Shown here: piece by piece, positions 4,879-53,211 of the stretch | How the letters are laid out: each line of letters opens with the position of its first letter | Numbering within the stretch: the first letter of the stretch is position 1 | Assembly: GCF_000212735.1 (NCBI RefSeq) | Contig: NC_015510.1 | Coordinates: 5,209,001 to 5,273,000, forward strand | Direction of reading: 5' to 3' | Length of the DNA stretch: 64,000 nucleotides | DNA from: Haliscomenobacter hydrossis DSM 1100 | GTDB lineage: Bacteria > Bacteroidota > Bacteroidia > Chitinophagales > Saprospiraceae | Program-made: the position numbers and the translations under genes | Notes under the pieces: model-generated | The model's input: only the letters and a program-made list of their open reading frames with translations | Told to the model about the DNA's origin: nothing | The model's database searches: none

Positions 4879-4993
4879 GGGGCGATAAAAAATAAGTGTT
4901 CATTTTGCTAAAGGATTAGATAAGTAAACGTTTCATTTTAAGTGTCTTATCTAATCCTTTGGCTCAGAGAAAATGAACACTTATTTTTGCCCC
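4879..4993. repeat. Long imperfect inverted repeat (about 46-bp arms)
   Basis: It begins ggggc at 4879 and ends gcccc at 4993. The left arm (4879-4924) and right arm (4946-4993) share ataagtgttcattt and aaaggattagataag in inverted orientation, leaving a loop of about 20 bases. It starts directly after the stop codon of the preceding gene. It could act as a terminator or be a small MITE-like element; the G/C-capped ends suggest the latter. No ORF inside. Confidence 0.75.
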
Positions 4994-5055
4994 ACTACTA
5001 AGGAACGGAAATGAACTAAACCCCTATTTTTTATTCCCGTTTGTAGAAAATCGCC

Positions 5056-5084
5056 TACCTTTGCATACGAACATTCATTCGTAT
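5056..5084 (+). promoter_or_regulatory. paaZ promoter element with overlapping operator-like palindrome
   Basis: TACCTTTG at 5056-5063 matches the Bacteroidota -7 consensus TAnnTTTG. One base downstream, ATACGAA (5065-5071) is mirrored by TTCGTAT (5078-5084) around a 6-base centre. The dyad covers the expected transcription start, where a repressor would block initiation. TetR-family PaaR regulators of phenylacetate genes bind dyads of this general type, but assigning one here is inference. Confidence 0.55.
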
Positions 5085-5113
5085 TGATTAGTCTAACCAA
5101 ATCAAACCAAAAT

Positions 5114-7168
5114 ATGTCTGCCAAGCTCCACAATTACCTTCAAGGAGCCTGGATACCCCATGATGGTGACGGTATCCCTCAGTTCGATGCCAGCGATGGT
5201 ACACTCATTGGTACCTGCGGAAGCGAAGGTTTGGATTACTCGTCCATTCTTCGTTATGCGCGGGAAGTAGGCGGCCCGGCACTACGCAAATTGAGTTTTC
5301 AGGAACGTGGGCGCATGCTCAAGGCGCTGGCGCTCTTCCTCTCCGAACACAAAGAAAAATATTACACCCTGAGTTACCGCAGTGGTGCTACCCGTGCCGA
5401 CAGCTGGATCGACATCGACGGTGGTATTGGCACCTTGTTTGCCTATGCCAGCCTGCGTCGAAAACTACCCGATACCCGTTGGTATCTGGATGGGGAGGCC
5501 GCTAAATTGTCCAAAGAAGGCAGTTTCATTGGCCATCACCTGATGGTTCCCAAGCATGGGGTGGCGATCCACATCAATGCCTTCAATTTTCCAATCTGGG
5601 GCATGTTGGAAAAACTGTCCGCCAATTTATTGGCAGGAATGCCCGCAGTGGTGAAGCCTTCCGAGGTAACATCTTATTTGAGTGAACGGGTGGTGCGCGA
5701 CATTGTCGCTTCGGGCATTTTACCCGCAGGAGCCCTACAATTGGTGTGTGGAAGTGGAGTAGGCATTTTGAACGAACTCTCCGAACAGGATGTCGTGACC
5801 TTCACTGGATCAGCCGAAACCGGCCGAGTGCTGCGCGCGTTACCCAGCATTATCCAAAACAGTGTGCCCTTCAACATGGAAGCGGATAGCCTCAATGCCA
5901 TTGTGCTGGCACCAGACGGCATCCCCGGCACGCCTACATTTGAGCTTTTTTTAAAAGAAATCCGCCGGGAAATGACCGCCAAAACCGGGCAAAAATGCAC
6001 CGCCATCCGCCGCATTTTTGTCCCCGAGACCTTAATCGACGCCGTGCAGGTTTCCCTTGGAAAAATGCTGGCGCAAACTACGGTGGGCGATCCACGCGCT
6101 GAAGGGGTACGCATGGGGCCTTTGGTAAGTAAAATTCAGCAGCAGGAAGTACGCCAAAAAGTAGCGCAATTGCTGCAACATTCCCAACTGGTCTGCGGCG
6201 ATTTGGATCAATTTGAGGTCAATAGTGCCCATAAAGAAAAAGGTGCTTTTTTTGCCCCCATTTTGCTGCGCAACGACCAACCTTTGGTGCAAACCAGTAC
6301 GCACGAAATCGAAGCTTTCGGCCCAGTGAGCACTTTGATGCCTTACCGCGATCTGGCCGAAGCCATCACCCTGGTCAATATGGGCAAAGGGTCGTTGGTG
6401 AGCACCATTGCGACCACCGATCCAGCTTTTGCGCAGGAGTACGTGATGGAAGCCGCAGCTTATCACGGTCGTATCCTCATCCTCAACGAGCAGAGTGCCC
6501 CCGAAAGCACGGGCCACGGCTCCCCGATGCCCTTGCTGAGCCATGGAGGGCCGGGGCGTGCGGGTGGAGGCGAAGAATTGGGCGGTTTGCGGGGCATTAA
6601 ACATTATCTGCAACGCACTGCCATCCAGGGCCATCCGACCATGTTGGGACAGATCACCGAAGTGTATCAAGTGGGTGGCGCACAGCCGGAGGCAAACATT
6701 CATCCTTTCCGCAAATATTTTGAGGAACTCGTCATCGGTGAAACCCTGACCACACACAAGCACACGGTAACGGAAACGGATATCGTGAATTTTGCCAATC
6801 TTACCGGTGATCATTTTTATGCCCACGTCGACGAAACCGCGTTGGAAGGTACCCCTTTCGAACGCAGGGTGGCTCATGGCTACTGGATTTTGTCAAAGGC
6901 CGCTGGAATGTTTGTCGAGCCGCGCAAAGGCCCGGTTATGCTCAACTATGGATTGGAAGAATGCCGCTTCACCAAACCCGTCTACCCTGGTATGACCATT
7001 GGGGTGCGGCTGACCGCAAAAGAAAAAATAGCGCAAGAACAGCGTGATGAGAACGATGTACCGAAAGGAATCGTTAAATGGTTAGTAGAAGTTTTTGACC
7101 AAAATAATGAGACTGTTGCCATCGCGACCATTCTCACCTTGGTCAGGAAAAAATCAAGTACCATTTAG
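5114..7168 (+). CDS. paaZ: Oxepin-CoA hydrolase / 3-oxo-5,6-dehydrosuberyl-CoA semialdehyde dehydrogenase
   Basis: A 684-aa two-domain enzyme of aerobic phenylacetate degradation. Residues 1 to about 510 are an aldehyde dehydrogenase (NAFNFP at 155-160, catalytic Glu256 in NMEAD, nucleophile Cys295 in TGQKCTA). Residues from about 535 form a MaoC-type hydratase with the GDHFYAH active-site motif near 565-570. Together they open the oxepin ring of ring-1,2-epoxyphenylacetyl-CoA and oxidise the aldehyde. I start at ATG 5114 ([11 protein letters not shown]); the upstream in-frame ATG lies inside the palindrome. The crotonase gene follows after 11 bp. The oxygenase genes paaABCDE are not in this window. 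Confidence 0.9.
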
Positions 7169-7179
7169 TAGGTAACCAT

Positions 7180-7944
7180 ATGTCAACAAACATTCAAGCA
7201 GGCCAGGTCGGCTATCACGTGGAAAATGGAATGGGCACCATCAGTTTTTACCACCCTGCCCATAACTCGATGCCTAGCCCACTGCTGCACATCCTGACCC
7301 AAACCATCGAGCAGGCGGGTGCTGATCCTGCGGCACGGGTCATTGTACTCAAAAGTGCTGGCGATCGCACCTTTTGTGCCGGAGCCAGTTTTGATGAATT
7401 GGCGGCCATCGAAGATTTTGACGCGGGAAAACGATTTTTCACGGGTTTTGCCAAGGTCATCAATGCCCTCCGTAAGTGTTCCAAATTGGTGATTGGACGG
7501 GTGCAAGGCAAAGCCGTTGGTGGTGGAGTGGGTATTGCTGCGGCCTGTGATTATTGCCTCGCCACCCAACACGCCGACATCAAGTTGAGTGAATTGGCCG
7601 TTGGCATTGGGCCATTTGTCGTAGGCCCCGCCGTGGAACGAAAAATTGGCCTTTCCGCTTTTTCTCAATTGGCCATCAACGCCACGGAATGGCATTCGGC
7701 CAACTGGGCGATGGAACGCGGCTTGTACGCCAATGTCTACAGCAACATTGCCGATATGGACGCAGCCATCCTGGAACTGGCCCAAAAACTGGCTCAATCC
7801 AGTCCCGAAGCGATGCACGAACTAAAAACCATTTTTTGGCAGGGCACCCAACACTGGGATCAGTTTTTAGAAGAACGAGCCGCCATCAGTGGAAGACTGG
7901 TGCTTTCGGAATACAGCAAAAAAGCCATTAAAAAAAATGGTTGA
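7180..7944 (+). CDS. Enoyl-CoA hydratase/isomerase family protein
   Basis: A 254-aa crotonase-fold protein. The oxyanion-hole segments are FCAGASFDEL and GKAVGGGVGIAAACDYCLA, and the region that normally carries a catalytic acid reads LSELAVGIGPFVVG. It lies 11 bp after paaZ and is almost certainly co-transcribed, so a PaaF/PaaG-like step in phenylacetate or a related acyl-CoA pathway is likely. Exact chemistry (hydration or isomerisation) cannot be told from sequence alone. Its stop codon TGA (7942-7944) lies just ahead of an intergenic repeat arm whose units also read ttgag. Confidence 0.82.
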   Translation: MSTNIQAGQVGYHVENGMGTISFYHPAHNSMPSPLLHILTQTIEQAGADPAARVIVLKSAGDRTFCAGASFDELAAIEDFDAGKRFFTGFAKVINALRKCSKLVIGRVQGKAVGGGVGIAAACDYCLATQHADIKLSELAVGIGPFVVGPAVERKIGLSAFSQLAINATEWHSANWAMERGLYANVYSNIADMDAAILELAQKLAQSSPEAMHELKTIFWQGTQHWDQFLEERAAISGRLVLSEYSKKAIKKNG

Positions 7945-7948
7945 GAGG

Positions 7949-8062
7949 GTTGAGAAAGTTGAGGAGGTTGAGGCTACCACGAGCGACATACACACTTTCA
8001 CACGAAAACCTCACACTCAAACCCATTCTTGCGGCAGCCTCAACCTCCTCAACCTTCTAAAC
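7949..8062. repeat. Intergenic inverted repeat, gttgag class, with shared core
   Basis: The left arm (7949-7983) is built from gttgag/gttgaggag units and ends in gaggctaccacgag; the right arm (8028-8062) is its near reverse complement. The loop is about 44 bases. The core GAGGCTRCCRCRAGCG recurs at 30637-30701 in another gap. It separates two co-directional genes. Confidence 0.8.
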
Positions 8063-8096
8063 TTTTACAAATACTCAGCCCGAACCAAATAAAACC

Positions 8097-10178: not shown

Positions 10179-10237
10179 GGCAAGTGTTTTAAATGTCTAA
10201 TTTGATTGCCACAAAATTTGCGCTTTTCCCGTTATTC

Positions 10238-10594
10238 ACTCACATTATGTATTTTTTCACCGCAGAGTAAAAGAGGACACGCGGAGTTCCGCGGAGTTTT
10301 TAGTTTTAAAGAGTTCGCCACCTTTGGTGGCTGGAGTTCGGGGTCCTGGAATATTTCGCTAAAGATCAAGTCAAGAAAAATAGGACTTCGAAGGGGAATG
10401 AACCATCCTTCAGCAATAGCGACCTCCGTGGCCTCTCCACACCGCAGGTGCCCTCAAAAAACTCCGCGGAACTCCGCGTGTACTCCGTTACTCTGCGGTA
10501 AAACAAATTGCGGTTAAATTTAAATCGCGGGATGTATCAGTGATGACCATCTTCTTACATCAGAAGTTTATGAACAGTACTACGTAATGTGAGT
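10238..10594. repeat. Nested inverted-repeat element filling a 448-bp gap
   Basis: The gap between 10179 and 10626 has no convincing gene. Outer arms ACTCACATTATGTA (10238-10251) and its near complement (10581-10594) enclose inner arms of about 44 bp (10259-10302 and 10455-10499) made of ccgcagagt / cgcggagtt units. The central loop is about 150 bp. The two nested pairs suggest a discrete element rather than a terminator. Confidence 0.75.
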
Positions 10595-10626
10595 TTCCTT
10601 ATTGATATGAAACAATTCCGAATCCA

Positions 10627-11528: not shown

Positions 11529-11571
11529 TAGCAACCCACGCTTATTCAATGTGTTATGAGACATTGCATAA

Positions 11572-11685: not shown

Positions 11686-11741
11686 CAAAATCTCAACAGC
11701 AAAGAACCAAAACCCACGAACCCACGAACCCTCACCTCCTC

Positions 11742-12303: not shown

Positions 12304-13542
12304 ATGCACAAAAAGTTGCCCTACCTTTTGATATTGTTGACCTTAGCGCTGAGTTGCTCCCGCAAAACAGCGGTTATGAAGCAATCCGACGAAGCACTGC
12401 GTACCTTAGCCGATGCACTGGCCCACAAATACATCATCATTGATGGCCACGTGGATTTGCCCTATCGCCTCAAAGTGACCAACTTTCAACTCACCCGCCA
12501 GTACATTGGGATTCCCGTAGAAACCAAAGAAGGTGACTTCGATTATGTACGCGCCAAAAAGGGCGGACTGAGTTGCCCCTTTATGTCCATTTATATTCCC
12601 TCTTCGTATCAATTGAATGGCAAAGCCAAGTTGTTGGCGGATTCGCTGATCGATATGGTAAGTGGGATTGCGCGGGAAATTCCCGACAAGTTTAAAATTG
12701 CCCTTTCTCCAGCGGAGGTCGAAGCCAATTTTAAACAAGGGCTAATTTCACTTCCCATGGGTATGGAAAATGGTGCCCCCATCATGGACGACCTGGCCAA
12801 TGTGGCCTATTTTCACCGCCGGGGTATCCGGTACATCACGCTGACTCACGGCAAAGACAACCAAATTTGTGATTCTTCCTACGACACTACGGGCACCTGG
12901 AACGGGCTAAGCCCTTTTGGTGAAAAGGTAGTCGCTGAAATGAACCGGGTCGGCATCATGGTGGATGTATCGCACATTTCGGACAGCTCCTTTTTTGATG
13001 CCATCAAAATCACCAAAGCACCGGTGATTGCTTCACATTCGTCCTGCCGCAAGTTTACCCCCGGCTGGCAGCGCAACATGAGCGATGACCAATTGATGGC
13101 CTTGAAAAAAAATGGCGGCGTCATCCAAATCAACTTTGGATCGACCTTCCTGGATTCAAAAATCCCGGAATACAACAACAAAAAGCGGGATGAATTGAAT
13201 GAATTGCTGAAAAAGGCGGGATTGAAAGATACTGACGCTGCAGCAAAACCGATCATCGAAGAGTTTGGCAAAAAGAATCCCAAACTCTACGCCGATGTCA
13301 AAACCGTAGCCGATCACATCGATCACGTGGTGAAATTGATCGGTATTGACCACGTCGGTTTGGGTTCCGATTATGATGGTGTAGGCGACTCCTTGCCCAC
13401 CGGACTCAAAGATGTATCGCAATACCCCAACCTGATTTTTGAACTGTTGAAACGCGGCTACAGCGAAGAGGACATCGCCAAGATTTGCTCGAAAAATGTG
13501 CTGCGGGTATGGAAGGCGGTGGAGAAAGTAGCGGGGAGATAA
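12304..13542 (+). CDS. Membrane dipeptidase (peptidase M19) lipoprotein
   Basis: A 412-aa zinc dipeptidase with a lipobox (LALSC, Cys18), so it is probably anchored in the envelope. Metal-binding motifs are IDGHVDLP (His49, Asp51), MGMENG (bridging Glu), DVSH, IASHSS and GIDHVGLGSDYDG, all as in renal-dipeptidase-type enzymes. These hydrolyse dipeptides, often with a D-residue at the C-terminus. It is a single gene, convergent with glgC, and the two are separated by an inverted repeat that begins at its stop codon. Confidence 0.9.
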   Translation: MHKKLPYLLILLTLALSCSRKTAVMKQSDEALRTLADALAHKYIIIDGHVDLPYRLKVTNFQLTRQYIGIPVETKEGDFDYVRAKKGGLSCPFMSIYIPSSYQLNGKAKLLADSLIDMVSGIAREIPDKFKIALSPAEVEANFKQGLISLPMGMENGAPIMDDLANVAYFHRRGIRYITLTHGKDNQICDSSYDTTGTWNGLSPFGEKVVAEMNRVGIMVDVSHISDSSFFDAIKITKAPVIASHSSCRKFTPGWQRNMSDDQLMALKKNGGVIQINFGSTFLDSKIPEYNNKKRDELNELLKKAGLKDTDAAAKPIIEEFGKKNPKLYADVKTVADHIDHVVKLIGIDHVGLGSDYDGVGDSLPTGLKDVSQYPNLIFELLKRGYSEEDIAKICSKNVLRVWKAVEKVAGR

Positions 13543-13675
13543 GTTGAAAAGTTTAGGGTTGAAAAGTATGGGTAGTACAAAATTCGAGATTTGAACTGAT
13601 GAAGGAACTTCATTTATGGCTCAGATCTCGCGTTACCCCAACTTTTCAACTTTTCAACCCCTAACTTTTCAACTT
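13541..13675. repeat. Intergenic inverted repeat, gttgaaaag class
   Basis: The left arm (13541-13575) consists of gttgaaaagtttaggg units; the right arm (13633-13675) is complementary with a few mismatches. The loop also carries cgagat against atctcg, extending the stem. It sits between two convergent genes, so here it could serve as a bidirectional terminator. Confidence 0.75.
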
Positions 13676-13679
13676 CTTC

Positions 13680-16616: not shown

Positions 16617-16683
16617 TTAGGGCGTTCGAAGTTCGGGGGTTAGCACTTTACAAACCCTCGAACTTCGAACTTTATGACCCTAG
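16617..16683. repeat. Intergenic inverted repeat, gttcg class, overlapping the thx stop
   Basis: The left arm holds ttcgaagttcgggggtt; the right arm (from about 16650) holds the complement aaaccctcgaacttcgaa and continues into the thx stop codon (ccctag). On the minus strand it follows thx and precedes glgA, so it may end thx transcription. Confidence 0.65.
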
Positions 16684-18702: not shown

Positions 18703-19317
18703 GAGTTGAGAAGGTTGAGGAGGTTGAGAGGGTTGAGAAGGTTTAGGGCTGCTGACTCTTTCTGAGGTTATTCAATAAAAAAGATACTTCTTCAACTTGT
18801 TTACGGCACCTGGCGTAATCATCTTCATTCATAAGACTAAGCTCTTTTGCAATGATTAACAAATTGAGTGTTTCGGTTAAACTACTATATGCTATCGTTG
18901 TAAAATGAGCCTGGTCCTTCGGAGTTTTTCTCGAAACGCCCTCTGAAATATTGGTCGGTACCGAAAGAGAGGATCGACGAATCTGACTGGTTATGCCAAA
19001 TTTTTCCTCATTTGGAAAATTTCGTGTACAACAATAAATTGTCTTCACTAATGCGATAGAATTTTGCCAAACTTTAAGTTTTTCAAAGCCATAAGTGTAT
19101 GCCATTGGTTCTATTTTTTCTGCAAAATGGATAAAGTGTCTCATAATAATACTACCAACTACTCCCCAAATGTACCTCTTTAGCTTTCGTAAAAAAACGA
19201 CACAAAAATTCATAACAAACTGAAAAACATAAATTTGCAAAAATATTTCTACAAGAAATCACGCGCTCCACTTCCTCAACCTCCTCAACCTCCTCAACTT
19301 TCTAAACCTTCTCAACC
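18703..19317. repeat. Inverted repeats (gttgag class) flanking the S23-type gene
   Basis: The left arm (18703-18750) is made of gttgagaaggttgaggag units and the right arm (19271-19317) of the complement ctcctcaacctcctcaac. They enclose a complete four-helix-bundle gene whose stop codon lies within the left arm. The arms are the same class as the gene-free repeat at 7949-8062. Confidence 0.75.
18743..19105 (-). CDS. Four-helix-bundle protein, 23S rRNA intervening-sequence (S23) family
   Basis: A 120-aa protein. The start at 19105 (MAYTYGFEKLKVWQNSIALV) matches the family N-terminus; the upstream extension (to 19240) is not family-like. The motifs FEKLKVWQ, ITSQIRRSSLSVPTNISEGVSRKTPKD and ARCRKQVEEVSFLLNNLRK are typical. 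Members form a pentameric four-helix bundle; the related Avd protein is the partner of reverse transcriptase in diversity-generating retroelements. In Leptospira and Coxiella such genes sit in hairpin insertions within 23S rRNA. Here it sits between intergenic inverted repeats, with no rRNA or reverse transcriptase nearby. Its function is unknown. Confidence 0.88.
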   Translation of the reverse strand: MAYTYGFEKLKVWQNSIALVKTIYCCTRNFPNEEKFGITSQIRRSSLSVPTNISEGVSRKTPKDQAHFTTIAYSSLTETLNLLIIAKELSLMNEDDYARCRKQVEEVSFLLNNLRKSQQP

Positions 19318-20281: not shown

Positions 20282-21055
20282 ATGGACTTACACCTAAAAG
20301 ACAAAGCCATCATCGTTACAGGCGGAGGGCGTGGTATCGGTGCGGGCATCGTGCATGCCCTGGCCCGCGAAGGCGCCATTCCGATCATCATCAGCCGCAG
20401 CGCAGAACACAACCTGGAAACCCTCAAAGCTATCAACAGCGAGGGGTATCAAATTGCCCTTGACTTAACCGATCCGGCCGCTTGTAAAAGTGCCGTTGAA
20501 CAAGCCCATAACATCCTTGGCCGCATCGACGGCCTGGTCAACAACGCTGGAGTAAACGATGGCGTAGGTTTGGAAAATGGCAGTTACGAAGGTTTCATCG
20601 CTTCTTTGCACAAAAACCTGGTGCACTATTACCTCATGGCCCATCACGCGCTACCGGCATTAAAGGCTTCTCAGGGTTCCATCCTCAACATTACGTCTAA
20701 AACTGCGGAGACTGGACAAGGCAATACCTCGGCGTATGCTGCTGCCAATGGAGGCCGCAATGCCCTCACCCGCGAATGGGCAGTCGAATTGCTCAAATAC
20801 GGGATCAGAGTCAACGCGGTGGTGGTGGCAGAATGTATGACGCCCTTGTATGAGTCCTGGCTCACGACCTTGGCTAATCCCGAAACCATGTTGGAAAAAA
20901 TCAAAGACAAAATCCCCCTGGGCAAACGGATGACCACGCAGGAAGAGATTGCCGATATGGTAGTATTCCTGCTCTCCTCCCGCTCAAGTCATACCACTGG
21001 ACAAATCATTCACGTGGATGGAGGGTATGTTCATTTGGATCGCGCACTACTTTAA
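20282..21055 (+). CDS. SDR oxidoreductase, L-fucose dehydrogenase-like, with Asn in place of the catalytic Lys
   Basis: A 257-aa short-chain dehydrogenase. It has TGGGRGIGAGI for NAD(P) binding (residues 13-23), NNAG (87-90), Ser139 and Tyr152. The expected YxxxK motif reads YAAAN, so residue 156 is Asn rather than Lys. The surrounding sequence (TGQGNTSAY, then LTREWAVELLKYGIRVN and AECMTPLYESW) is otherwise like L-fucose dehydrogenases, which oxidise L-fucose to the lactone used by the preceding enzyme. The substitution may be a subfamily trait. It is 93 bp after the fuconolactonase gene and followed by an inverted repeat. Confidence 0.82.
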   Translation: MDLHLKDKAIIVTGGGRGIGAGIVHALAREGAIPIIISRSAEHNLETLKAINSEGYQIALDLTDPAACKSAVEQAHNILGRIDGLVNNAGVNDGVGLENGSYEGFIASLHKNLVHYYLMAHHALPALKASQGSILNITSKTAETGQGNTSAYAAANGGRNALTREWAVELLKYGIRVNAVVVAECMTPLYESWLTTLANPETMLEKIKDKIPLGKRMTTQEEIADMVVFLLSSRSSHTTGQIIHVDGGYVHLDRALL

Positions 21056-21171
21056 GCGAAAAGCGAATAGCGAAAAGCGAATAGTAATATACCATTAGTT
21101 TTTCATTGCTTGCTTTTCACTTTTAGCTTTACGCTTTTAGCTATTCGCTTTTAGCTTTTCACTTTTCACTT
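21054..21171. repeat. Intergenic inverted repeat, agcgaaaag class
   Basis: The left arm (21054-21090) is agcgaaaagcgaatagcgaa repeated; the right arm (about 21110-21171) is the complementary tttcgctattcgctttt type, longer than the left. It lies between co-directional genes and ends 9 bp before the fucP start codon. Confidence 0.75.
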
Positions 21172-21180
21172 ACATCAGTT

Positions 21181-22422
21181 ATGACCAACAAAATCGCCTC
21201 TTACACCCTATCCTTTGTGCTGGTGACCAGCCTTTTCTTTTTATGGGCCTTCGTGCACAACCTGGAGCCCATTCTGATTCCTCACCTCAAAAAAGCTTGT
21301 GAGCTTACCGACATGCAATCGGCACTGATCGATTCGGCGGTTTATTTGGGGTATTTCATCATGGCCATTCCGGCGGGAATTGTGATGAAAAAATATGGCT
21401 TTCGGCGCGGCATCATCATCGGGTTGTTGCTCTATGCCTTCGGTGCTTTTTTGTTCATTCCCGCCGCCAGCACCCGCATGTACATCTTCTTTTTGGGCGC
21501 GCTGTTCATCATAGCTTCGGGGTGTACGTTTTTGGAAACCGTGGCCAACCCCTATGTGACCCTGCTCGGCAAGCCCGAAGGCGCCACCACACGGTTGAAC
21601 CTGAGTCAGTCCTTCAATGGCCTCGGTGCTTTTGTGGCCCCCGTCCTCGGTGGACAATTCATTTTAAGCGGCATTGAAATGAGTGATGCCGAAAAAGCGA
21701 CCCTGTCGGCTGAACAAATGAACAATTATTTGCAAAGCGAAGCAAATACCGTCCAAATTCCCTATCTGATTATTGGATTGGTGGTGTTATTGGTGGCGGT
21801 GCTGTTCATTTTCATCCGCACTCCTGAACCGGGAATCAAAGAAACCGGAACACAAGAAAAACGCAGTCTGCTGCATGCCTTACGCCATCCGCATTTGCGC
21901 AATGGGGTGATTGCCCAGTTTTTTTATGTAGGGGCACAGGTATGCGTCACCAGTTTTTTCATTCGTTTTGCCAAATTCTCCAGCAATACCCCCGAAAAAG
22001 AAGCCGCCTTTTGGCTGAGTATGGCCATGTTGGGCTTCATGCTGGGTCGCTTTTTTGGAACTTTGCTCACCAAATACATTGCACCCAACCGCCTGCTATT
22101 CCTATATTCGCTGATCGCAGCCGGTCTCTTGGGAGTAGCCATTGTAACCGGATCAAACATCGCCGTGTGGGCCATCATTTTGGTTCCCTTTTTTGAATCC
22201 ATCATGTTCCCCACCATCTTCTCCCTGGCCATCCAGGATTTGAAGGAAGACACTGAACTGGGTTCTTCACTGGTGGTGATGTCCATCGTTGGTGGTGCAT
22301 TTGCACCCTTGTTGATGGGTTGGATCTCCGATCAGTCTACCATCAAAATAGCCTATATCGTGCCCCTGGCCTGTTTATTGGTTGTAGCCTGGTATGGCGC
22401 GAGGGGATATAAAACTGCTTGA
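21181..22422 (+). CDS. fucP: L-fucose:H+ symporter, MFS family
   Basis: A 413-aa inner-membrane transporter with about 12 hydrophobic segments. FFLWAFVHNLEPILIPHLKKACELTD, SAVYLGYFIMAIPAGIVMKKYGFRRGI and GCTFLETVANPYVTLLG are hallmarks of the FucP/GalP-like FHS subfamily, including the N-terminal acidic residue (Glu in HNLEP) used for sugar/proton coupling. Length is typical. Within this cluster, import of L-fucose is the natural role. Its start codon is just after a long inverted repeat and its stop directly before another. Confidence 0.9.
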   Translation: MTNKIASYTLSFVLVTSLFFLWAFVHNLEPILIPHLKKACELTDMQSALIDSAVYLGYFIMAIPAGIVMKKYGFRRGIIIGLLLYAFGAFLFIPAASTRMYIFFLGALFIIASGCTFLETVANPYVTLLGKPEGATTRLNLSQSFNGLGAFVAPVLGGQFILSGIEMSDAEKATLSAEQMNNYLQSEANTVQIPYLIIGLVVLLVAVLFIFIRTPEPGIKETGTQEKRSLLHALRHPHLRNGVIAQFFYVGAQVCVTSFFIRFAKFSSNTPEKEAAFWLSMAMLGFMLGRFFGTLLTKYIAPNRLLFLYSLIAAGLLGVAIVTGSNIAVWAIILVPFFESIMFPTIFSLAIQDLKEDTELGSSLVVMSIVGGAFAPLLMGWISDQSTIKIAYIVPLACLLVVAWYGARGYKTA

Positions 22423-22502
22423 TTAGCGAATAGCGAAAAGTGAATAGTGAATAGCTGTCAAAATCGCTTTCACTTTTCACTTTTCGCTTTTAACTTTTCA
22501 CT
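22423..22502. repeat. Intergenic inverted repeat, agcgaaaag class, abutting the mutarotase ATG
   Basis: The left arm (22423-22454) contains agcgaatagcgaaaagtgaa; the right arm (22464-22502) contains its complement ttcacttttcgctttt. The loop is only about 10 bases. It fills the whole 80-bp gap between fucP and the mutarotase gene, so the mutarotase ribosome-binding region must lie in the arm. Confidence 0.78.
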
Positions 22503-28521: not shown

Positions 28522-28640
28522 TAAAAGTTGAAGCGTTGAAGGGTTGAAGAGAAGTTTTAAAGTCAGTTAATAGAAAAGACCATCGTGCTTTCAACTTTTG
28601 AACTTCTTTTCAACGCTTCAACATTCCAACTCTTCAACTA
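28522..28640. repeat. Intergenic inverted repeat, gttgaag class, in a divergent gap
   Basis: The left arm (28522-28558) contains aaaagttgaagcgttgaagg; the right arm (about 28588-28640) contains the complement tcaacgcttcaac with extra units. It lies between two divergent genes, so terminator function is unlikely at this site. Confidence 0.72.
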
Positions 28641-30598: not shown

Positions 30599-30607
30599 TT
30601 TTTTTTA

Positions 30608-30730
30608 AGTTGAGGAGTTGAGAAAGTTGATAAGTTGAGGCTGCCGCGAGCGAAAAAGGTAAAAAACTATGTCATTATGGTATGTCGCTTGCGGTAGCCT
30701 CGAACCCCCGAACAACGAACCTTCGAACCC
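30608..30730. repeat. Intergenic inverted repeat with shared core and two arm classes
   Basis: The 16-bp core (gaggctgccgcgagcg, 30637-30652) is mirrored at 30686-30701. Outside it, the left arm uses gttgag-type units and the right arm uses gaacc/cgaacc units (gttcg class), so the outer arms pair only at the GTT positions. The core matches that at 7970-8041, including the adjoining GACATAC. Confidence 0.75.
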
Positions 30731-31942: not shown

Positions 31943-32036
31943 GGGGCAACCATATGGGCAACCCCGCGTGGTTGCCCTGGTTCATTGTGGGACCCACATT
32001 GGGGTGTAGGGGCATCCCTGTGTGGGTGCCCCTACG
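31943..32036. repeat. Intergenic inverted repeats, ggggcaacc class
   Basis: GGGCAACC near 31944 pairs with GGTTGCCC at 31970-31977, and GTAGGGGCA near 32007 pairs with TGCCCCTAC ending at 32036; a short TGTGGGACCCACA lies between. The right end directly touches the stop codon of the S9 peptidase gene on the minus strand. Confidence 0.7.
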
Positions 32037-34876: not shown

Positions 34877-34972
34877 GGGTTAAAGGTTCGGGAGTTCGTA
34901 GGTTCGGGAGTTCGGGGGTTAAGTCCGCGCTTAAGAACCTACGAACTCCCGAACCTAGGAACCCACGAACCC
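34877..34972. repeat. Intergenic inverted repeat, gttcg class, in a divergent gap
   Basis: The left arm (34877-34923) is ggttcgggagttcgtaggtt-like; the right arm (34930-34972) is its near complement. The loop is about 6 bases, so the hairpin would be very stable. It ends 10 bp before the MATE start codon and lies 71 bp from the S9 peptidase start. No TAnnTTTG element is visible between it and the MATE gene. Confidence 0.8.
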
Positions 34973-34982
34973 TTTTTCACCT

Positions 34983-36368: not shown

Positions 36369-36460
36369 GGAGCAACCCTCTGTAGTTGCCCAAATGGTTC
36401 GGAACAACCACAGCGTAAGATCATACCAGACAGGGGCAACCACAGAGGGTTGCCCTCCCC
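36366..36460. repeat. Intergenic inverted repeat, gcaaccctctg class, between convergent genes
   Basis: The left arm (36366-36392) contains gagcaaccctctgtagttgcc; the right arm (36434-36460) contains ggcaaccacagagggttgcc. The arm overlaps the stop codon of the MATE gene (TAG, 36366-36368). It may act as a bidirectional terminator here. Confidence 0.75.
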
Positions 36461-44758: not shown

Positions 44759-44762
44759 GGAT

Positions 44763-45006: not shown

Positions 45007-45032
45007 GGGTGCGGCTCTAATTTGATGTACAA

Positions 45033-46293: not shown

Positions 46294-46362
46294 CAGCCTT
46301 TTGTTCTTGGATCACAAAATACTATTTTTATTCTTTCTCTACATCAAACTAGAGCCGCACCC

Positions 46363-48646
46363 GTTGGTACTTTAGTTGATTTTGTAAAAAATGGCTAGAT
46401 GTAGTCGAGCTCTTTACAAGGTTTTCATACCATCCAAGCTTGTTGAATTGGCGTTCAGCAAAAATCACGTCTAAATCTGCATCATTGTCTAAATCACCTG
46501 TAGCCACCAATGCACGAAGGCCTTTACCTTTGTAAATAGTTTGTTTGGTGAAATGTTGCTTGCCGTCGTTTTGGTACCAAATCACTAGATCCCCATAGCT
46601 TTCAGTTCCTACTAAAATATCCACGTCGCCATCGTTATCAAGATCTTCAATTTTTAAATCGGAAATCACGGGCTCTCTAAGATCGTTGATAAGTTGTTTT
46701 TCGACAAAATTGCCAGTGCCGTCATTTTCAAACAATAAAAATAAATTATAGGCAACAGCTACTATGTCATTGTCTTTATCCTGGTCAATGTCTACTATAC
46801 GATAGTTAAATGGTAGTCCAGGTAGACCTTTACTGATCATAGTTTGGGAGGTAAATGCACCTGCGCCCTTATTTTTGTACCATATCAAGTATCCAGGATA
46901 AATGGCAGCAACAATATCCGGCAATTGATTTCCATCTAAATCAGCCACTTGTATGCCATTTAAATTGGATAGAACGTTTTTAAAATCATCAATCTGTTGA
47001 GGGGGCAAAAACTCGCCTTTTCCATTGTTTTGGTACCAAGCCAAGACTTGCCTTGATCTAAGTCCTGTTACAATATCGTTGTCTCCATCGTTGTCCAAAT
47101 CCGTTATCACTATGTATTCCGATAAGTATTCATTGGGGTTTTTATAAATGATCAGCTCATTCGAAAAGATGCCGTTACCAAAGTTTTTATACCAGGATAA
47201 GCGAGAATCAGGGAGTTGATAATAGGTAAACAAATCCTTAATGTTGTCGCCATCCAGATCAACAGGTATGGCCAGTTTCACACCCAGTTGAGCGCTTGAT
47301 ATGATTTTTTGCTCAGAAAATTCATGCCTACCTAAATTTTTATACCAAGTCAATTTTCCATCAAATGCAGAAGTCGCAATAATATCATTTTGGCGATCAC
47401 CATCTATGTCTTCAGCAGAAATTGAGGTTATCCACCCATGTGCTGCAACTTTCAGGGTGCGAACACTATAGGCATTAGCCCCATTATTGAATCCCAGCAA
47501 GATGCCATCAAATCCTGATATACCATAGAGTATGTCCAAGTTTTGATCTTTATTAAAATCCGCAAGGTCAAATCTTACGATGTTTGAAGGAGCTGTTATT
47601 AGTACGTTTGTAGACAAAAAAGTCCCATCGCCCTCATTTTTCAGCCAAACGATATCACTCCGAAAATCAAACTCACTTACCGAATTTTTGTTGACAACCA
47701 TCAATATATCAACATCGTTATCTTTATCTATGTCTGCATACTTTATCAATTTTACACTTTCACCACCACGGATTGTAAGTGACTGAGTGAAATTTTGAAG
47801 CTTGCCACTACCCGCATTCATTTGTATGAGCAAATTTCCTGGGGTAGTATAAACTAGATCAAGGAGACCATCTTTGTTCAAATCCATCAGACCTGAAAAA
47901 CTAACGAAATTTAGGCTTTCCCTCAGTGATGGCCGTTGCAATGTAAACACCCCTGAACCGTTATTCGGTAAAAAAGCAATCTCCCAATTGACTTGATTAT
48001 AAAAATGCACCAAAATATCCAGATCTTTATCCTGATCAAAATCCTCAAGTCCTACCATTTTGACATCCGAGGCAACAATCACGCTGTAAACAGAATGAAT
48101 GAGCCCATTACCACCATTTTTATACACAAGTATTTGATCGAGGTTAGAAGCTAGTGCTACTACATCAATGTCTTGATCCCCATCAACATCTCCAAGGAAA
48201 AGTTTCTCCAGGCTAATGTTGAAATTTATAAAAAACTCAGGGTCAGAAAATGTACCATTACCCCTGTTTTTAATGAACATGAAGTGCTTGGCATTGTTCG
48301 CCACAGTTGGAGAGGAAGCTGCCCCTAAAAAATCTATATCACCATCTTTATCAAAATCAACCCATTGTCCATCAACAATACCAATAAATTTTGAACTCAG
48401 GATAATCGTATCAGAAAAATTGTTCTTCCCATCGTTCTTAAGCCAGAATAAAGCATCATTAAAATTTGTCGTCCCTACAATATCGAGATTGCCATCCCCA
48501 TTTAAATCCAATGACTGTAAGGACTGCAAGCCGCAGATTTCACATTGTGTCAATATTTTTTCTTCTCCAAACTGAGCATATAATCTAAGATTAACGCTCA
48601 GTATCAAGATGGCCAAAACGAATAGTCTATTAGTTTTTTGCATCAT
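46363..48646 (-). pseudogene. VCBS/FG-GAP repeat surface protein, interrupted by an IS
   Basis: The 5' part of the gene: signal peptide (MMQKTNRLFVLAILILSVNLRLYAQ) and about 14 calcium-type DxDxDGxxD motifs (DLNGDGNLD, DFDKDGDID, DVDGDQDID and so on), enough for two seven-bladed propellers. The frame now ends at 46349 in sequence contributed by the IS end (RVRL then TAG). Joining 46363 to 44998 in place of the element gives an in-frame protein of 839 aa ending in a T9SS sorting domain. The remaining part is otherwise intact, so the damage looks recent. Confidence 0.88.
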
Positions 48647-48705
48647 TTCTTCGTTTAAATCAAGGTATATCCCTAACTAAACGACAATGAGAGTAGAATG
48701 TTATT

Positions 48706-50649
48706 TCATTTAAGGCTCATCCCCTTAAACACCTCCAGCGCCGCCGGATTCCGCATCGCATCTTTATTCACCGAAGTCTCAATCGACTTTCCCATCAACA
48801 ACTTTTTCACCGGCAATTCCATCTTTTTCCCACTCAAAGTATACGGAATTTCTGGCACCGCAATCACCCGATCCGGCACATGACGCGGTGAAAAGTCGGT
48901 TCGCAAGGTGTTTGCAATCTTTTTTTGCAGCGCCTCATCCAAAACCACACCCTCGGCCAGCACCACAAACAGCGGCATCACCGAAGTGCCATCTTCCTGC
49001 TCAATGTTCACAATCAAACTATCGCGGATTTCGGGTAATTTTTCCACTGAGCGGTAAATTTCGCTGGTGCCAATGCGGATGCCCTGCCGATTGAGGGTAG
49101 CATCGGAGCGACCCAGGATAATCAGGCTTTGATGCGGCGTAATTTGCAGCCAGTCGCCGTGTCGCCATACGCCGGGGTAGGTATCGAAGTAGCTGGCGCT
49201 GTATTTGCTGAAGTCGGGATCGTTCCAAAATTTGATGGGCATGCAGGGCATGGGCTGGGTGATCACCATTTCGCCAACGGCATCCGTCAAAGGTTGGCCC
49301 GCTTCGTCCCAGGATTCCATGGCGCAGCCGAGGGTACGGCACTGGATCTCGCCTTCGTATACGGGCCAAAGCGGGTTGCCACCCACAAAAGCCGTACACA
49401 CATCGGTGCCTCCGCTGATGGAACAGAGCCAGAGATCCGATTTTACTTTTTCGTACACCCAGGCAAAACCTTCGTGTGGCAGTGGCGAACCCGTTACGCC
49501 CAAAGAACGTAGGCTGTTGAGGCCAAAACTGGCGGGATCAATCCCCGCTTTCATACACGATAATATATAGGCGGCGCTGGTGCCAAAATGATTCAACTTG
49601 AGCTCGGCGGCCATTTTCCACAACACGTTCATGTCCGGGTAGCCGGGGCTGCCGTCGTACAGCACGATGGTGGCACGGGCGAGCAGGGCGGCTTGAACAA
49701 AATTCCACATCATCCAACCCGTTGTGGTGTACCAGAAGAAGCGCTCGCCAGGCTGTACATCGTTGTGAAAATGGATGTATTTCAGGTGTTCCAATAACAT
49801 GCCACCGTGGCTGTGGGTGATGGCTTTGGGCAATCCGGTGGTGCCGGAGGAGTACAATACCCAAATGGGATGGTCAAAAGGCACCTGGGTAAACATCAAT
49901 GCTGCATTTTGGTTTTGCATGATCTCCGGCCAGGAACTGCTTTGGGGCAAATCCAGCGCGAATTCCTCCAAATACGGGATCAGCACCGTATTCAACAAAG
50001 AAGGCAGGTTGGCCTGTAAGTTCCGCACATCGTCCCGACGGTCAAACCGTTTGCCGCCGTAAGGATAGGCGTTCACAGCGATCAGTACTTTGGGTTCTAT
50101 CTGCACAAAACGCTCCAGCACACTGCTGGCACCAAAATCGGGCGAACAACAGGACCATACTGCACCCAACGACAATGTGGCCAAAAGCGCCACCGTGGCC
50201 TGGGGGATATTCGGTAAATAACCTACGATCCGATCACCTGGCTGTACGCCCAGACTTAACAAATGCGCACGCAGGGACGCAACCTGGCCGCGCAGCTCGA
50301 CCCAGGAAATTTCTTGTACGGGCAAATGTTCGGCTTGAAAAAGAATGGCGGGGAAACGATCATCGGCACGCTGGAAAATGGCTTCGGCATAGTTGAGCAT
50401 AGCGCCTTCAAACCAACGGGTGTGGGGCATTTCGCCCTGCATGACCTCTGAGTACGTCCAGGGCAGATCAAAGTAGTCCACCAGCGAAGCCCAAAAATCG
50501 GCGGGCTGGGTAGTTGACCATTCCCAGGCTTTTTGGTAATCGGCGGCAATCCCGTAGCCAGATTTTTGCTCCAACCACTGGAGGTAATGCGAAAGGTGGG
50601 TTTGTGCAACCCATTCGGGAGCCGGAGTCCAGAGGAGGCGGTTGTTCAT
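48706..50649 (-). CDS. Acetoacetyl-CoA synthetase
   Basis: A 647-aa AMP-forming acyl-CoA ligase from ATG 50649 (MNNRLLWTPAPEW). ATP binding is in VLYSSGTTGLPKAITHSHGG; other landmarks are WFEGAMLNYAEAIF, TTGWMMWNFVQAALLARATIVLYDGSPGYPD, SGGTDVCTAFVGGNPLWPVYEGEIQ and the C-terminal lysine region YTLSGKKMELPVKKLL. These are the marks of acetoacetate-CoA ligases rather than acetyl-CoA synthetases, although the two are close. It activates acetoacetate in ketone-body or polyhydroxybutyrate metabolism. Confidence 0.9.
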   Translation of the reverse strand: MNNRLLWTPAPEWVAQTHLSHYLQWLEQKSGYGIAADYQKAWEWSTTQPADFWASLVDYFDLPWTYSEVMQGEMPHTRWFEGAMLNYAEAIFQRADDRFPAILFQAEHLPVQEISWVELRGQVASLRAHLLSLGVQPGDRIVGYLPNIPQATVALLATLSLGAVWSCCSPDFGASSVLERFVQIEPKVLIAVNAYPYGGKRFDRRDDVRNLQANLPSLLNTVLIPYLEEFALDLPQSSSWPEIMQNQNAALMFTQVPFDHPIWVLYSSGTTGLPKAITHSHGGMLLEHLKYIHFHNDVQPGERFFWYTTTGWMMWNFVQAALLARATIVLYDGSPGYPDMNVLWKMAAELKLNHFGTSAAYILSCMKAGIDPASFGLNSLRSLGVTGSPLPHEGFAWVYEKVKSDLWLCSISGGTDVCTAFVGGNPLWPVYEGEIQCRTLGCAMESWDEAGQPLTDAVGEMVITQPMPCMPIKFWNDPDFSKYSASYFDTYPGVWRHGDWLQITPHQSLIILGRSDATLNRQGIRIGTSEIYRSVEKLPEIRDSLIVNIEQEDGTSVMPLFVVLAEGVVLDEALQKKIANTLRTDFSPRHVPDRVIAVPEIPYTLSGKKMELPVKKLLMGKSIETSVNKDAMRNPAALEVFKGMSLK

Positions 50650-50692
50650 ACAGTGGCATTTTATGTCCTCAAACAAAAAATGTTAAAAACAG

Positions 50693-50726
50693 AAGGGCAA
50701 CCCTGATCGAAACCCGAGTTGCCCTT
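50693..50726 (-). terminator. Intrinsic terminator downstream of hup
   Basis: AAGGGCAAC pairs with GTTGCCCTT around a loop of about 15 bases; on the minus strand the stem is followed a few bases later by a T-rich stretch (tgttttt). It lies between the HU gene and the ligase gene. Confidence 0.6.
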
Positions 50727-50767
50727 TTGATTCAAGCAATAATATTAACGTAGAATAATCCGCTCAA

Positions 50768-51040
50768 TTAGTTAACAGAGTCAGAAAGTTCCTTGCCAGG
50801 CTTGAATTTTACCACTTTTTTGGCGTCAATTGTGATTGTTTGACCAGTTTGTGGGTTGCGGCCAGAGCGAGCGTCACGTTTAGATACGGAGAAAGTACCG
50901 AAGCCAATCAGTGTAACTTTTCCATCTCCTTTCAATTCAGCGGCAATGCTGTCCAAAACGGCGTTAAGCGCGTCAGTTGCTTGGGCTTTGGTGATCTTCG
51001 CGCCTTCAGCAATTTTGTTAATCAGATCTCCTTTATTCAT
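50768..51040 (-). CDS. hup: HU family DNA-binding protein
   Basis: A 90-aa nucleoid protein: MNKGDLINKIAEGAKITKAQATDALNAVLDSI, then GFGTFSVSKRDARSGRNPQTGQTI with the DNA-minor-groove arm (RSGRNPQTGQ) and VVKFKPGKELSDSV. Length and sequence are canonical. It bends and wraps DNA. It has its own promoter (51074-51104) and terminator, so it is a single-gene unit. Confidence 0.95.
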   Translation of the reverse strand: MNKGDLINKIAEGAKITKAQATDALNAVLDSIAAELKGDGKVTLIGFGTFSVSKRDARSGRNPQTGQTITIDAKKVVKFKPGKELSDSVN

Positions 51041-51073
51041 CTCAAAGGGTTTTGATTAAAAAATAATTGGTGT

Positions 51074-51104
51074 CAAATTTAGGGGGTCTCAATTGTAAAA
51101 CCAA
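51074..51104 (-). promoter_or_regulatory. hup promoter with both -33 and -7 elements
   Basis: On the minus strand, TTGG (51104-51101) is followed 19 bases later by TAAATTTG (51081-51074). Both parts and the spacing fit the Bacteroidota housekeeping consensus. This is the best-formed promoter in the window. Confidence 0.65.
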
Positions 51105-51191
51105 GCTTTTTTTTGGTTAAAAACTTGAAAAACCTAGATTTTACAAGGGCTTTCGTGCGTTATACTGTCATTAACGCAAAAATCTGGACTT

Positions 51192-51413
51192 ATGATGTCA
51201 AAATCTGGAAAATCTTTCGCGCTCAAATCCAATACTGCGCTTCTCCTGTTGTGTTTGTTTTGCCTCTTGGGGACGGGCAGCAGCTTCAGTTGTAGCCGAA
51301 AATCGGGTTGCCCCGCCGTCGATACCATTAGCTCTCGTTTGTCTGGAGGTAAAGATATGCCCAAAGCCAAACGCGCTAAGGGAGGATTATTTCCTAAAAA
51401 CTTTGGCAAATAA
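51192..51413 (+). CDS. Small probable lipoprotein with CSRKSGCP motif
   Basis: A 73-aa peptide: positively charged start (MMSKSGKSFALK), a hydrophobic stretch, then FSCSRKSGCPAVD and a basic tail ending GGLFPKNFGK. The first Cys after the hydrophobic stretch is a likely lipidation site. I believe similar short proteins with a CSRKSGCPA motif and an LFPK tail occur in other Bacteroidota, but I cannot check. Function unknown. The gap around it holds nothing else. Confidence 0.55.
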   Translation: MMSKSGKSFALKSNTALLLLCLFCLLGTGSSFSCSRKSGCPAVDTISSRLSGGKDMPKAKRAKGGLFPKNFGK

Positions 51414-51544
51414 CCCCCCGGGCAAAGCCAAATGTCTTGAGCAAATGACCTGTTTTTTTGACCACAAGGAGTCCAAGTCACCAAGCACGACATTTTCCTT
51501 GGTGACTTCTTGTCTTTGTGGCCAAAAAAAAGATTAAACTAAGC

Positions 51545-51946
51545 CTAAATCGATTGACACAGTTCCAACAAAACACCGTTGGCCGACTTGGGGTGGATGA
51601 AACAAACCAGCTTATTGTCTGCACCTTTTTTGGGTTCTGTATTGAGCAATTGGAAACCTTCTGTCCGCAGGCGTTCCATTTCCGCGTGAATGTCATCAAC
51701 CTCAAAGGCAATATGGTGCAAACCTTCCGGCTTTTTTTCCAAAAATTTGGCGATGGCGCTGTCGGGATGGGTTGCTTCCAGCAATTCGATTTTCGCTTCA
51801 CCGGTTTGGAAAAACGAGGTTTTGACAAATTCGGAAGCCACTTCTTCTTCTTTATAAGGTTGCTCTCCCAATAGTTTTTCGAAGAGTTCATTGCTGGCGG
51901 CCAGGTCTTTTACGGCGATGCCAATGTGTTCAAGGCGAAGAATCAT
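51545..51946 (-). CDS. mce: Methylmalonyl-CoA epimerase
   Basis: A 133-aa vicinal-oxygen-chelate protein from ATG 51946 (MILRLEHIGIAVKDL). Metal ligands are in LEHIGIAV, GLHHIAFEVDDI and the C-terminal GVLLELCQ, with IELLEATHPDSAIAKFLEKK typical of the family. It converts (S)- to (R)-methylmalonyl-CoA in propionyl-CoA metabolism, alongside methylmalonyl-CoA mutase (not in this window). The ATG is 7 bp from the arm of a very regular inverted repeat. Confidence 0.9.
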   Translation of the reverse strand: MILRLEHIGIAVKDLAASNELFEKLLGEQPYKEEEVASEFVKTSFFQTGEAKIELLEATHPDSAIAKFLEKKPEGLHHIAFEVDDIHAEMERLRTEGFQLLNTEPKKGADNKLVCFIHPKSANGVLLELCQSI

Positions 51947-51953
51947 GATCAAT

Positions 51954-52048
51954 AAGTTGAAAAGTTGAAGGGTTTAAAGTTGAAAAGTTTGGGCAATGTA
52001 GTGCACTGCCTTAAACTTTTCAACTTTAAACCCTTCAACTTTTCAACT
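51954..52048. repeat. Near-perfect inverted repeat, gttgaaaag class, between mce and prs
   Basis: The left arm (51954-51996) and right arm (52002-52048) are almost exact complements over about 43 bp; both contain gttgaaaagttgaagggttt. The loop is only about 5-9 bases. It lies between divergent genes. It is the most regular hairpin in the window. Confidence 0.88.
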
Positions 52049-52062
52049 CAAAAAAATGCGCT

Positions 52063-52070
52063 TACCTTTG
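52063..52070 (+). promoter_or_regulatory. TACCTTTG promoter element of prs
   Basis: An exact TAnnTTTG match, 15 bp after the repeat arm and 107 bp before the prs ATG, leaving a leader of about 100 bases. Confidence 0.55.
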
Positions 52071-52097
52071 CAGCAAATTTTTAACATTGCTCAAAAA

Positions 52098-52145
52098 AAC
52101 GGCACCCGGAAGAAATGAATACTTCCGGAGCGGCGTTTTTGTTTT
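52098..52145 (+). promoter_or_regulatory. Hairpin with U-run in the prs leader, possible attenuator
   Basis: CGGAAG (52107-52112) pairs with CTTCCG (52122-52127) and flanking GC-rich bases may extend the stem; tttttgtttt follows at once. The layout looks like an intrinsic terminator within the 5' leader of prs, which would let transcription be attenuated. A short frame starting ATG at 52116 crosses it. Confidence 0.4.
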
Positions 52146-52177
52146 CATTTCAACACCTGCGTGCAATTTAACAGACA

Positions 52178-53107
52178 ATGGTTGAAGTAAAAATACTATC
52201 GGGAGCCAACTCCAGTTATTTGGCGGAAAAAATAGCTGATTATTACGGGAATCCGCTTGGTGACGTCAAAATCCATCGCTTCAGCGATGGTGAAATGCAA
52301 CCGGTGATCAATGAATCGGTACGGGGTGCCTACGTTTTTTTCATCCAATCCACTTTTCCTCCTGCTGAAAACCTGATGGAACTGCTGCTTTTGATCGATG
52401 CGGCCAAGCGGGCTTCAGCAGGTTACATCACTGCGGTGATTCCCTACTTTGGCTACGCCCGCCAGGATCGCAAAGACCAACCACGGGTGCCCATTTCCGC
52501 AAAATTGATCGCCAATCTGCTGGAGGCCGCTGGTGCCAACCGCATCATGACCATGGACTTCCACGCCGATCAAATCCAGGGTTTTTTCGATATCCCGGTG
52601 GATCACCTCAAAAGTGAAGCCATATATATACCCTACCTGCACGAACAAGGACTGGACAATGTCATTTTTGCCTCGCCTGACGTCGGTGGGGTAAAAAGAA
52701 CCCGGGCCTATTCCAAACATTTCCATACCGACCTGGTCATTTGTGACAAATACCGGGAAAAAGCCAATGAAGTAGCGGGAATGACGGTGATCGGAAATGT
52801 GGAAGGTCGGGATGTAGTGCTTGTTGACGACATGGTGGACACCGCTGGTACCCTCTGCCGCGCGGCTGAAATCATCATGAAAAAAGGGGCAACCAGTGTA
52901 CGCGCCATTTGTACGCACCCTATTTTGTCGGGCAAAGCGTACGAAAACATTGAAAATTCAGCGCTGACTGAATTGATTGTGAGCGATACCATTCCTTTGA
53001 AACAATCGTCGCCAAAGATTAAGGTGCTGTCTACGGCCAAACTTTTTGCACGGGCCATTCGGAATACGCATGAGCATCGGTCGATATCGGCGTTGTTTGT
53101 GGAATAA
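52178..53107 (+). CDS. prs: Ribose-phosphate pyrophosphokinase
   Basis: A 309-aa enzyme making PRPP from ribose-5-phosphate and ATP, needed for purine, pyrimidine, NAD and histidine synthesis. IHRFSDGEMQPVINESVRGAYVFFIQS, the catalytic flexible loop (GYARQDRKDQPRVPISAKL), MDFHADQIQGFF and the PRPP-binding loop VLVDDMVDTAGTL are all present. Length is as usual. Its leader contains a hairpin that could attenuate it. Followed by the gene for L25. Confidence 0.96.
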   Translation: MVEVKILSGANSSYLAEKIADYYGNPLGDVKIHRFSDGEMQPVINESVRGAYVFFIQSTFPPAENLMELLLLIDAAKRASAGYITAVIPYFGYARQDRKDQPRVPISAKLIANLLEAAGANRIMTMDFHADQIQGFFDIPVDHLKSEAIYIPYLHEQGLDNVIFASPDVGGVKRTRAYSKHFHTDLVICDKYREKANEVAGMTVIGNVEGRDVVLVDDMVDTAGTLCRAAEIIMKKGATSVRAICTHPILSGKAYENIENSALTELIVSDTIPLKQSSPKIKVLSTAKLFARAIRNTHEHRSISALFVE

Positions 53108-53111
53108 CACC

Positions 53112-53211
53112 CGTAGGGGCAACCCTTTGTGGTTGCCCTAGACACGCGATCCCCACGAATAAATTCGTGGGTTATATCGAGTTATTCCCCGCCCACGAAT
53201 AAATTCGTGGG
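53112..53211. repeat. Inverted repeats between prs and rplY: ggggcaacc and cacgaataaattcgtgg types
   Basis: GGGCAACC (53117-53124) pairs with GGTTGCCC (53131-53138). After it lie two copies of the 20-bp palindrome CCCACGAATAAATTCGTGGG at 53152-53171 and 53192-53211. All are in the 200-bp gap; the second palindrome copy ends 29 bp before the rplY promoter element. Confidence 0.8.

Follow-up and report, generated by a model that had tools for sequence, protein, structure and literature searches.

Intervening sequences (IVSs) have been known for more than 25 years, and the small protein S23 is familiar from insertions within ribosomal RNA (rRNA) genes. The present analysis deals with S23-encoding elements and tandem-unit inverted repeats of Haliscomenobacter hydrossis DSM 1100 (G000; 8.77 Mb, four contigs), starting from a window of 64,000 nucleotides (positions 5,209,001 to 5,273,000 of contig NC_015510.1, i.e., G000:C1:5209001-5273000), for which an earlier note, made from the letters alone, had proposed a family of palindromic elements in 15 intergenic gaps. 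According to PMC4990558, the classical IVS combines an S23 open reading frame (ORF) with a 28-bp terminal stem; the function and origin of IVSs are called unclear, and one idea cited there is that the ORF encodes a component of mobility. The elements described here resemble the Coxiella IVS (PMC4990558) in the S23 ORF, the size range of about 430 nt and the terminal inverted repeats forming a stem, but differ in being mostly intergenic, in their many copies, in arms built from tandem units, and in numerous ORF-less relatives.

Heptamer repeats are known from Xanthomonas and Nostoc (Rehm et al. 2015, PMC4692102). Two arrays of the heptamer GGGAATC converge in 70 (Xcc) and 75 (Xac) cases, most of them intergenic, and thereby share the inverted tandem-unit arms with the present elements; PMC4692102 treats heptamers as quadruplex-forming repeats, and a term search of that paper found no S23. 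Repetitive extragenic palindromes (REPs) with their REP-associated tyrosine transposases (RAYTs), and GTAG palindromes, are likewise dispersed, extragenic, mostly downstream of genes and thought to be mobile (PMC3733652), but possess a fixed consensus and a tag, whereas the tandem-unit hairpins have neither. The S23 family PF05635 resembles Avd, the accessory protein of diversity-generating retroelements (DGRs), which is essential to retrohoming (PMC10053308); unlike the situation of Avd in DGRs, no reverse transcriptase is present inside the S23 elements. A link of S23 to inverted or tandem repeats was not found described in the open-licence literature, an absence that carries little weight, and the short repeat strings gave only unrelated matches there.

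The reading favored here, at a probability of roughly 0.7, is that the inverted repeats with tandem-unit arms form a class of hairpins that are mobile, comprising S23-encoding elements and their ORF-less derivatives, and represent an intergenic form of rRNA IVSs. A full element of about 400-600 bp would consist of a left array of 7-9 bp units, the S23 gene (for the intervening-sequence protein, IVP, a four-helix-bundle, Avd-like protein) and a second array in which that unit is inverted. Dispersed intergenic elements together with matching ORF-less copies, in one free-living genome and its relatives, make the IVS mobility idea testable, and the intergenic S23 elements thus provide a way to test the spread of rRNA insertions. 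If true, the link to S23 would supply a source for one class of bacterial short tandem repeats, account for some of the S23 annotations associated with repeats, and make available a pair of protein and repeat in which specificity appears to shift frequently.

S23 genes between inverted tandem-unit arms

At 18703, where the earlier note had recorded a repeat and overlooked the S23 gene within it, the gap contains one arm only; the missing arm lies 526 bp off, at 19274-19316, and the loop encodes S23, the 23S rRNA intervening-sequence protein. The element is composed as follows.

18705..18747, plus strand: left arm, made of GTTGAGAAG units and containing the stop codon of the S23 gene
18743..19105, minus strand: S23 gene (PF05635; TIGR02436, four helix bundle protein) for a product of 120 aa, counted from the start MAYTYG
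19274..19316, plus strand: right arm, with the GTTGAG units inverted

The protein encoded between the two arms belongs to PF05635 (23S_rRNA_IVP; four helix bundle protein in NCBIfam) and has solved relatives (2gsc, 2rld). The genome holds eight S23 genes, and inverted tandem-unit arms surround all eight of them, with scores of 21 to 48.5; among 356 other gene calls, eight scored above 14, the strict cut-off for the S23 arm score, and three reached at least 21. Flanks of 600 bp were used for these scores, as for the named loci, the Bacteroidota sample and the plasmid loci described below, and flanks of 700 bp for listing the units of the own S23 elements and for scoring the congeners. Each of the eight elements has its own unit (GTTGAAG, CAGCTATCAGC, GTTGAGAAG, GTTCGGGG, GTTGATGAGG, AGTGAAA, GTGTGGGTGTGA and GACGAATG). 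The NCBIfam Avd model matches four of the eight proteins, below its cut-off.

In the congeners G001-G004, 16 of 18 PF05635 matches had an arm score of at least 17, and neither of the remaining two is a plain S23 gene, one being a partial match in a 584-aa frame and the other a below-cut-off match in a 376-aa frame. S23 elements with GTGTGGG units (L082, L208, L205) adjoin tRNA-like genes in three congeners, as judged by eye. PF05635 was found in 45 of 61 Bacteroidota genomes, and 18 of the 29 new loci fetched from these scored above 14. The named S23 loci, i.e., the best 80 of 371 from a protein scan, span Bacteroidota, Fibrobacter, Chloroflexi, Planctomycetes, Verrucomicrobia, Poribacteria, cyanobacteria, proteobacteria and others (L113 among them is apparently the same gene as L193 of G002); 34 of the 80 exceeded 14, compared to none of 139 same-locus controls. 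Named loci at or below 14 often have short degenerate arms and share more 5-mers in inverted than in direct orientation in 34 of 43 cases (P = 3e-6); for 20 low-scoring named loci no Rfam match was obtained. In G057, S23-like sequence (L234) shows a 156-bp gap relative to two sister species (L228, L241).

Plasmids contributed 25 records matching S23, mainly from cyanobacteria, with four of five scored loci above 14 (L257 scored 10), and no match was found in the phage collection. On a Picosynechococcus plasmid (L258), the S23 gene has cas10/cmr2 on one side and cmr3 on the other, within a type III-B operon of the clustered regularly interspaced short palindromic repeat (CRISPR) system; 23S rRNA IVP is listed among CRISPR-linked adaptation associations in PMC10910872, and the tandem arms of L258 could be mistaken for arrays, a reading proposed here. 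On a plasmid of Azospirillum lipoferum 4B (L259), the large-subunit rRNA extends from 283 to 3321 and includes a stop-free S23 frame (1501-1821) between inverted GGACAGA/GGACGGA arms with a score of 23.5. An S23 frame with tandem arms inside a 23S rRNA gene indicates a design common to the intergenic elements and the L259 IVS. Compared feature by feature with S23-type IVSs, the full element 18705-19316 has the S23 ORF, which the ORF-less hairpins lack; terminal inverted repeats enclose the ORF in all eight own S23 genes; and location within an rRNA gene, found for L259, does not apply to the window's element, which is intergenic.

Unit and S23 protein lineage go together. Among 72 loci whose arms score at least 17, the more identical two S23 proteins are, the more similar are their arms (r = 0.46, uncorrected for host relatedness), both within the genus (r = 0.53) and between sets (r = 0.37), and the correlation persists at r = 0.32 after removal of the duplicate and of pairs above 60% identity, with 0 of 2000 permutations reaching the observed value in each case.

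Hairpins without an ORF

In 464 kb around the window, the scope of the repeat survey, 92 inverted repeats were detected, 86 intergenic and three coding, whereas ten per-gap Markov shuffles at the same threshold yielded zero intergenic repeats, and the mean was 0.33 when the whole region was modelled by an order-3 Markov chain. The inverted repeats listed in the earlier note could be confirmed, some of them perfect (36 of 36 bases in 51955-51990/52013-52048), as could the variation of the arm unit among gaps. Self-matching arms define a palindromic element family, as had been proposed, although the family does not extend to all 15 gaps. The one-family reading was rejected, since the gaps comprise one miniature inverted-repeat transposable element (MITE), three GTAG/REP-like repeats, one ACCGCAGAG-type repeat, and ten that have tandem-unit arms of 7-9 bp units in common. 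Besides the S23 element, the latter hold the following hairpins, none of which has an ORF; the repeated unit of the arms is given for each.

7949..8062: unit GTTGAG, core GGCTACC..GGCAGCC; in the orthologous gap of G002 and G004 the unit is GGATTTCGG
13541..13675: unit GTTGAAAAG
16624..16670: unit GTTCG; both G002 and G004 have GTTCC
21046..21179: unit AGCGAAA, as also in G002; G004 has GATGAGT
22420..22500: unit AGCGAAT, the hairpin taking up all of the spacer between a stop codon and the following start; both G002 and G004 have GATGAGT
28524..28625: unit GTTGAAG; hairpin not present in G002 and G004
30607..30730: chimeric, unit GTTGAG on the left and GTTCG on the right, common core GGCTGCCGCGAGCG
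34882..34974: unit GTTCGGGA; G004 has GTTCC
51955..52048: unit GTTGAAAA, perfect 36-bp arms

The units of the hairpins lead back to the S23 elements. Seven of the eight own S23 units have a matching short hairpin within the 464 kb at a cosine of at least 0.4, and six at a cosine of at least 0.5, a level at which a local hairpin was matched by 7 of 47 foreign S23 units (P = 5e-4). A strict GTTCG hairpin pattern gave 177 overlapping matches genome-wide (five matches at four sites within the 464 kb) and none for the backward control, and ATTGTGTGCAACC is common to several of the listed loops, as expected if the copies were dispersed. Loops whose arms differ in unit (7949 and 30608 in the window, R149147, R186322, and sites in G002 and G004) have a core palindrome in common, CTACCGC..GCGGTAG, which may be another element nested within them.

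A strict test based on 5-mers recognised tandem arms in 34 of the 86 intergenic repeats (2.1% of 2176 control segments). Of these 34, 24 are in co-directional, nine in convergent and one in divergent gaps; gaps of 60 bp or more number 166, 34 and 56, respectively. Units point from the outside inwards at nine sites for GTTGA and at 15 for GTTCG, with none in the opposite direction, and the AGYGAA pattern gave zero matches in either direction within the 464 kb. The elements at 21054 and 22423 occupy entire spacers between co-directional genes.

It might be suggested that the hairpins are RNA elements (terminators, mRNA stabilisers or RNase III sites) maintained by structural selection, and the proximity of arms to stop codons, noticed early on, was borne out: an arm is found no more than 10 nt away from 43 of 91 gene ends (28.3 expected for uniform placement in the same gap), with 7 of 73 start codons near an arm (14.5 expected). 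The scarcity of tandem hairpins in divergent gaps, one of 34 as compared to 56 of 256 gaps, points the same way. On the other hand, T-runs follow the right arm in 6 of 86 repeats, as against 5.6% of control positions, a control-level value by which terminators were rejected as a class, in line with the earlier doubt about a pure terminator role; A-runs precede the left arm in 10 of 86, a mild excess. The earlier note had also taken the matching arms as a sign of selection for structure or of a process making inverted copies. The first of these received no support as far as RNA is concerned: among transition mismatches in co-directional gaps, read on the transcript strand, there are 28 G.U and 31 A.C, and thus no bias towards pairs preserving an RNA stem. 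Inheritance by copying fits the arm matches better. An Rfam scan of the window matched no known RNA family, and a role as RNA elements, which would also have to accommodate the turnover described below, appears quite improbable.

A further alternative attributes the repeats to replication, with slippage generating the tandem units, hairpin-templated copying the inverted arm, and S23 genes being passengers in unstable DNA. It would agree with the arm pairs aligning best in register rather than shifted (21 of 27 tested), with mismatches being mainly A/G (31 of 56 in the 464 kb), and with unit numbers that vary between orthologues (G000 and G002 at 21054) and between copies (L194, L197), but it leaves unexplained why S23 genes are preferentially bracketed (8 of 8 compared to 3 of 356 controls), why unit and protein track each other, and why copies of about 545 bp occur at unrelated sites. 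As the sole origin of the repeats replication is unlikely, and such processes may act on the arms after insertion.

Dispersal and turnover of the elements

The copies just mentioned reside in G003, where three S23 copies are pairwise 96%, 86% and 88% identical over 545-557 bp and both begin and end in the arms, with no sequence shared between their flanks; dS of one pair is 0.07. Likewise, L195 and L198, from sister species, share 91% identity across 492 bp between unrelated flanks, and of three species of about 90% identity two possess an S23 element that the third lacks. The window's own S23 element is missing from G002 and G004. The S23 gene is under purifying selection, the ratio of nonsynonymous to synonymous substitution (dN/dS) being 0.04-0.11 in six of ten pairs, with the other four saturated.

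For 15 tandem-unit sites of G000 an orthologous gap was recovered, sites without one being excluded from this table, which was scored by eye and rests on G004 for R413463, where the G002 sequence is partial. The unit was kept in all relatives read at two sites, whereas at 13 of 15 the element is absent or has another unit in at least one relative. This disposes of the possibility, raised at the outset, that relatives have the same repeats at all orthologous sites, and it is equally difficult to reconcile with RNA elements held by structural selection. Clean filled and empty sites occur between G002 and G004 (91.4% identical), e.g., a 112-bp insert directly after a stop codon. Two of the swapped units are found with an S23 gene in the relatives, namely GATGAGT (L202) and GGATTTCGG (L203). 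In one gap of another genus, two species have a GTTGAGTTAT-type hairpin and a third has a CACAAAG-type hairpin. A survey of insertions in three S23-rich relatives yielded five, one of which is an inverted repeat (REP-like).

It can be rationalized on this basis how S23-encoding hairpins might spread. S23 would recognise its own iterated unit in the arms, as a DNA or an RNA hairpin, and would act as the mobility factor that promotes copying into new sites, mostly directly after stop codons, where the transcript or gene would be least disturbed. The short ORF-less copies, consisting of arms and a small loop, would be non-autonomous derivatives on which S23 acts in trans, and rRNA IVSs would be the same kind of element residing in 23S rRNA genes. 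Copying, probably through a nucleic-acid intermediate, would be performed by a polymerase or reverse transcriptase of the host or of the element; 17 reverse-transcriptase matches in the genome make such a partner possible. The five-bundle (five-subunit ring) assembly of a solved S23 relative, taken from a reference title in PMC10053308, suggests that S23 may be a ring-forming protein binding iterated units.

Several observations weigh against mobile S23 hairpins. Transposition was not observed, and the junctions examined revealed no consistent target duplication or defined end, target-site duplications being sought by eye at a few junctions; at least one site (R420744), with a partial arm remaining, is explained by deletion rather than by insertion. 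Domain scans recognised no catalytic domain in S23. The matching of units is imperfect, with the unit of L082 lacking a corresponding hairpin in the 464 kb, the 7 of 47 foreign units also finding a local one, and no S23 gene with GTTCC units in G002 or G004, though hairpins there use GTTCC. For the CACAAAG and ACCGCAGAG classes this genome offers no S23 partner, and 46 of the 80 named loci fail the strict arm score.

A wider generalization is judged slightly less likely than not: S23 proteins would define mobile hairpins free of a transposase, each lineage recognising its own 7-9 bp unit, with inverted unit arrays serving as recognition site and ends. Many unexplained heptamer-like tandem repeats as well as the classical rRNA IVSs would then be members or remnants, and whenever the resident S23 changed, old sites would come to have a new unit.

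Other repeat classes in the window

The remaining five gaps belong to separate classes.

4876..5004: MITE of about 125 bp; 20 near-complete genome copies, the window's own included
10255..10503: ACCGCAGAG..ACGCGGAG inverted repeat with a loop of about 155 bp
31943..31977: GGGGCAACC palindromes, GTAG/REP-like
36372..36453: GCAACC..GGTTGC palindrome, GTAG/REP-like
53112..53211: GTAGGGGCAACC palindrome, then two CCCACGAATAAATTCGTGGG palindromes, GTAG/REP-like

With REP-type and MITE-type repeats among the listed gaps and seven Y1_Tnp matches in the genome, one might conceive of HUH or DDE transposases as the movers of all hairpins, which would then be palindromes of the REP/RAYT or the ordinary MITE type. 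However, the seven Y1_Tnp flanks (about 420-520 bp each), compared by eye, show other palindromes and in no case tandem-unit arms, whereby RAYT was rejected as the mover of the tandem-unit hairpins, and the tandem units differ among copies, unlike a REP or MITE consensus. No fixed, tagged GTAG-type palindrome beside a Y1 gene characterizes the tandem-unit hairpins, the resemblance being confined to CCCACGAATAAATTCGTGGG, which at 53152/53192 is similar to palindromes adjoining the Y1_Tnp gene L010. As for MITEs, the ends of the tandem-unit hairpins vary, and the junctions read revealed no consistent target-site duplication; the family at 4879 repeats well. A common REP or MITE origin is thus very improbable.

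The Y1_Tnp genes L010-L014 are flanked by short palindromes of their own, one of them CCCACGAATAAATTCGTGGG-like. The MITE family of about 125 bp shows a presence/absence difference also in G002 and G004, at R11302. The ACCGCAGAG..ACGCGGAG repeats form a dispersed family with loops of about 155 bp and without S23 (10255-10503, R46721, R369405, R452941, R454954 and R457548).

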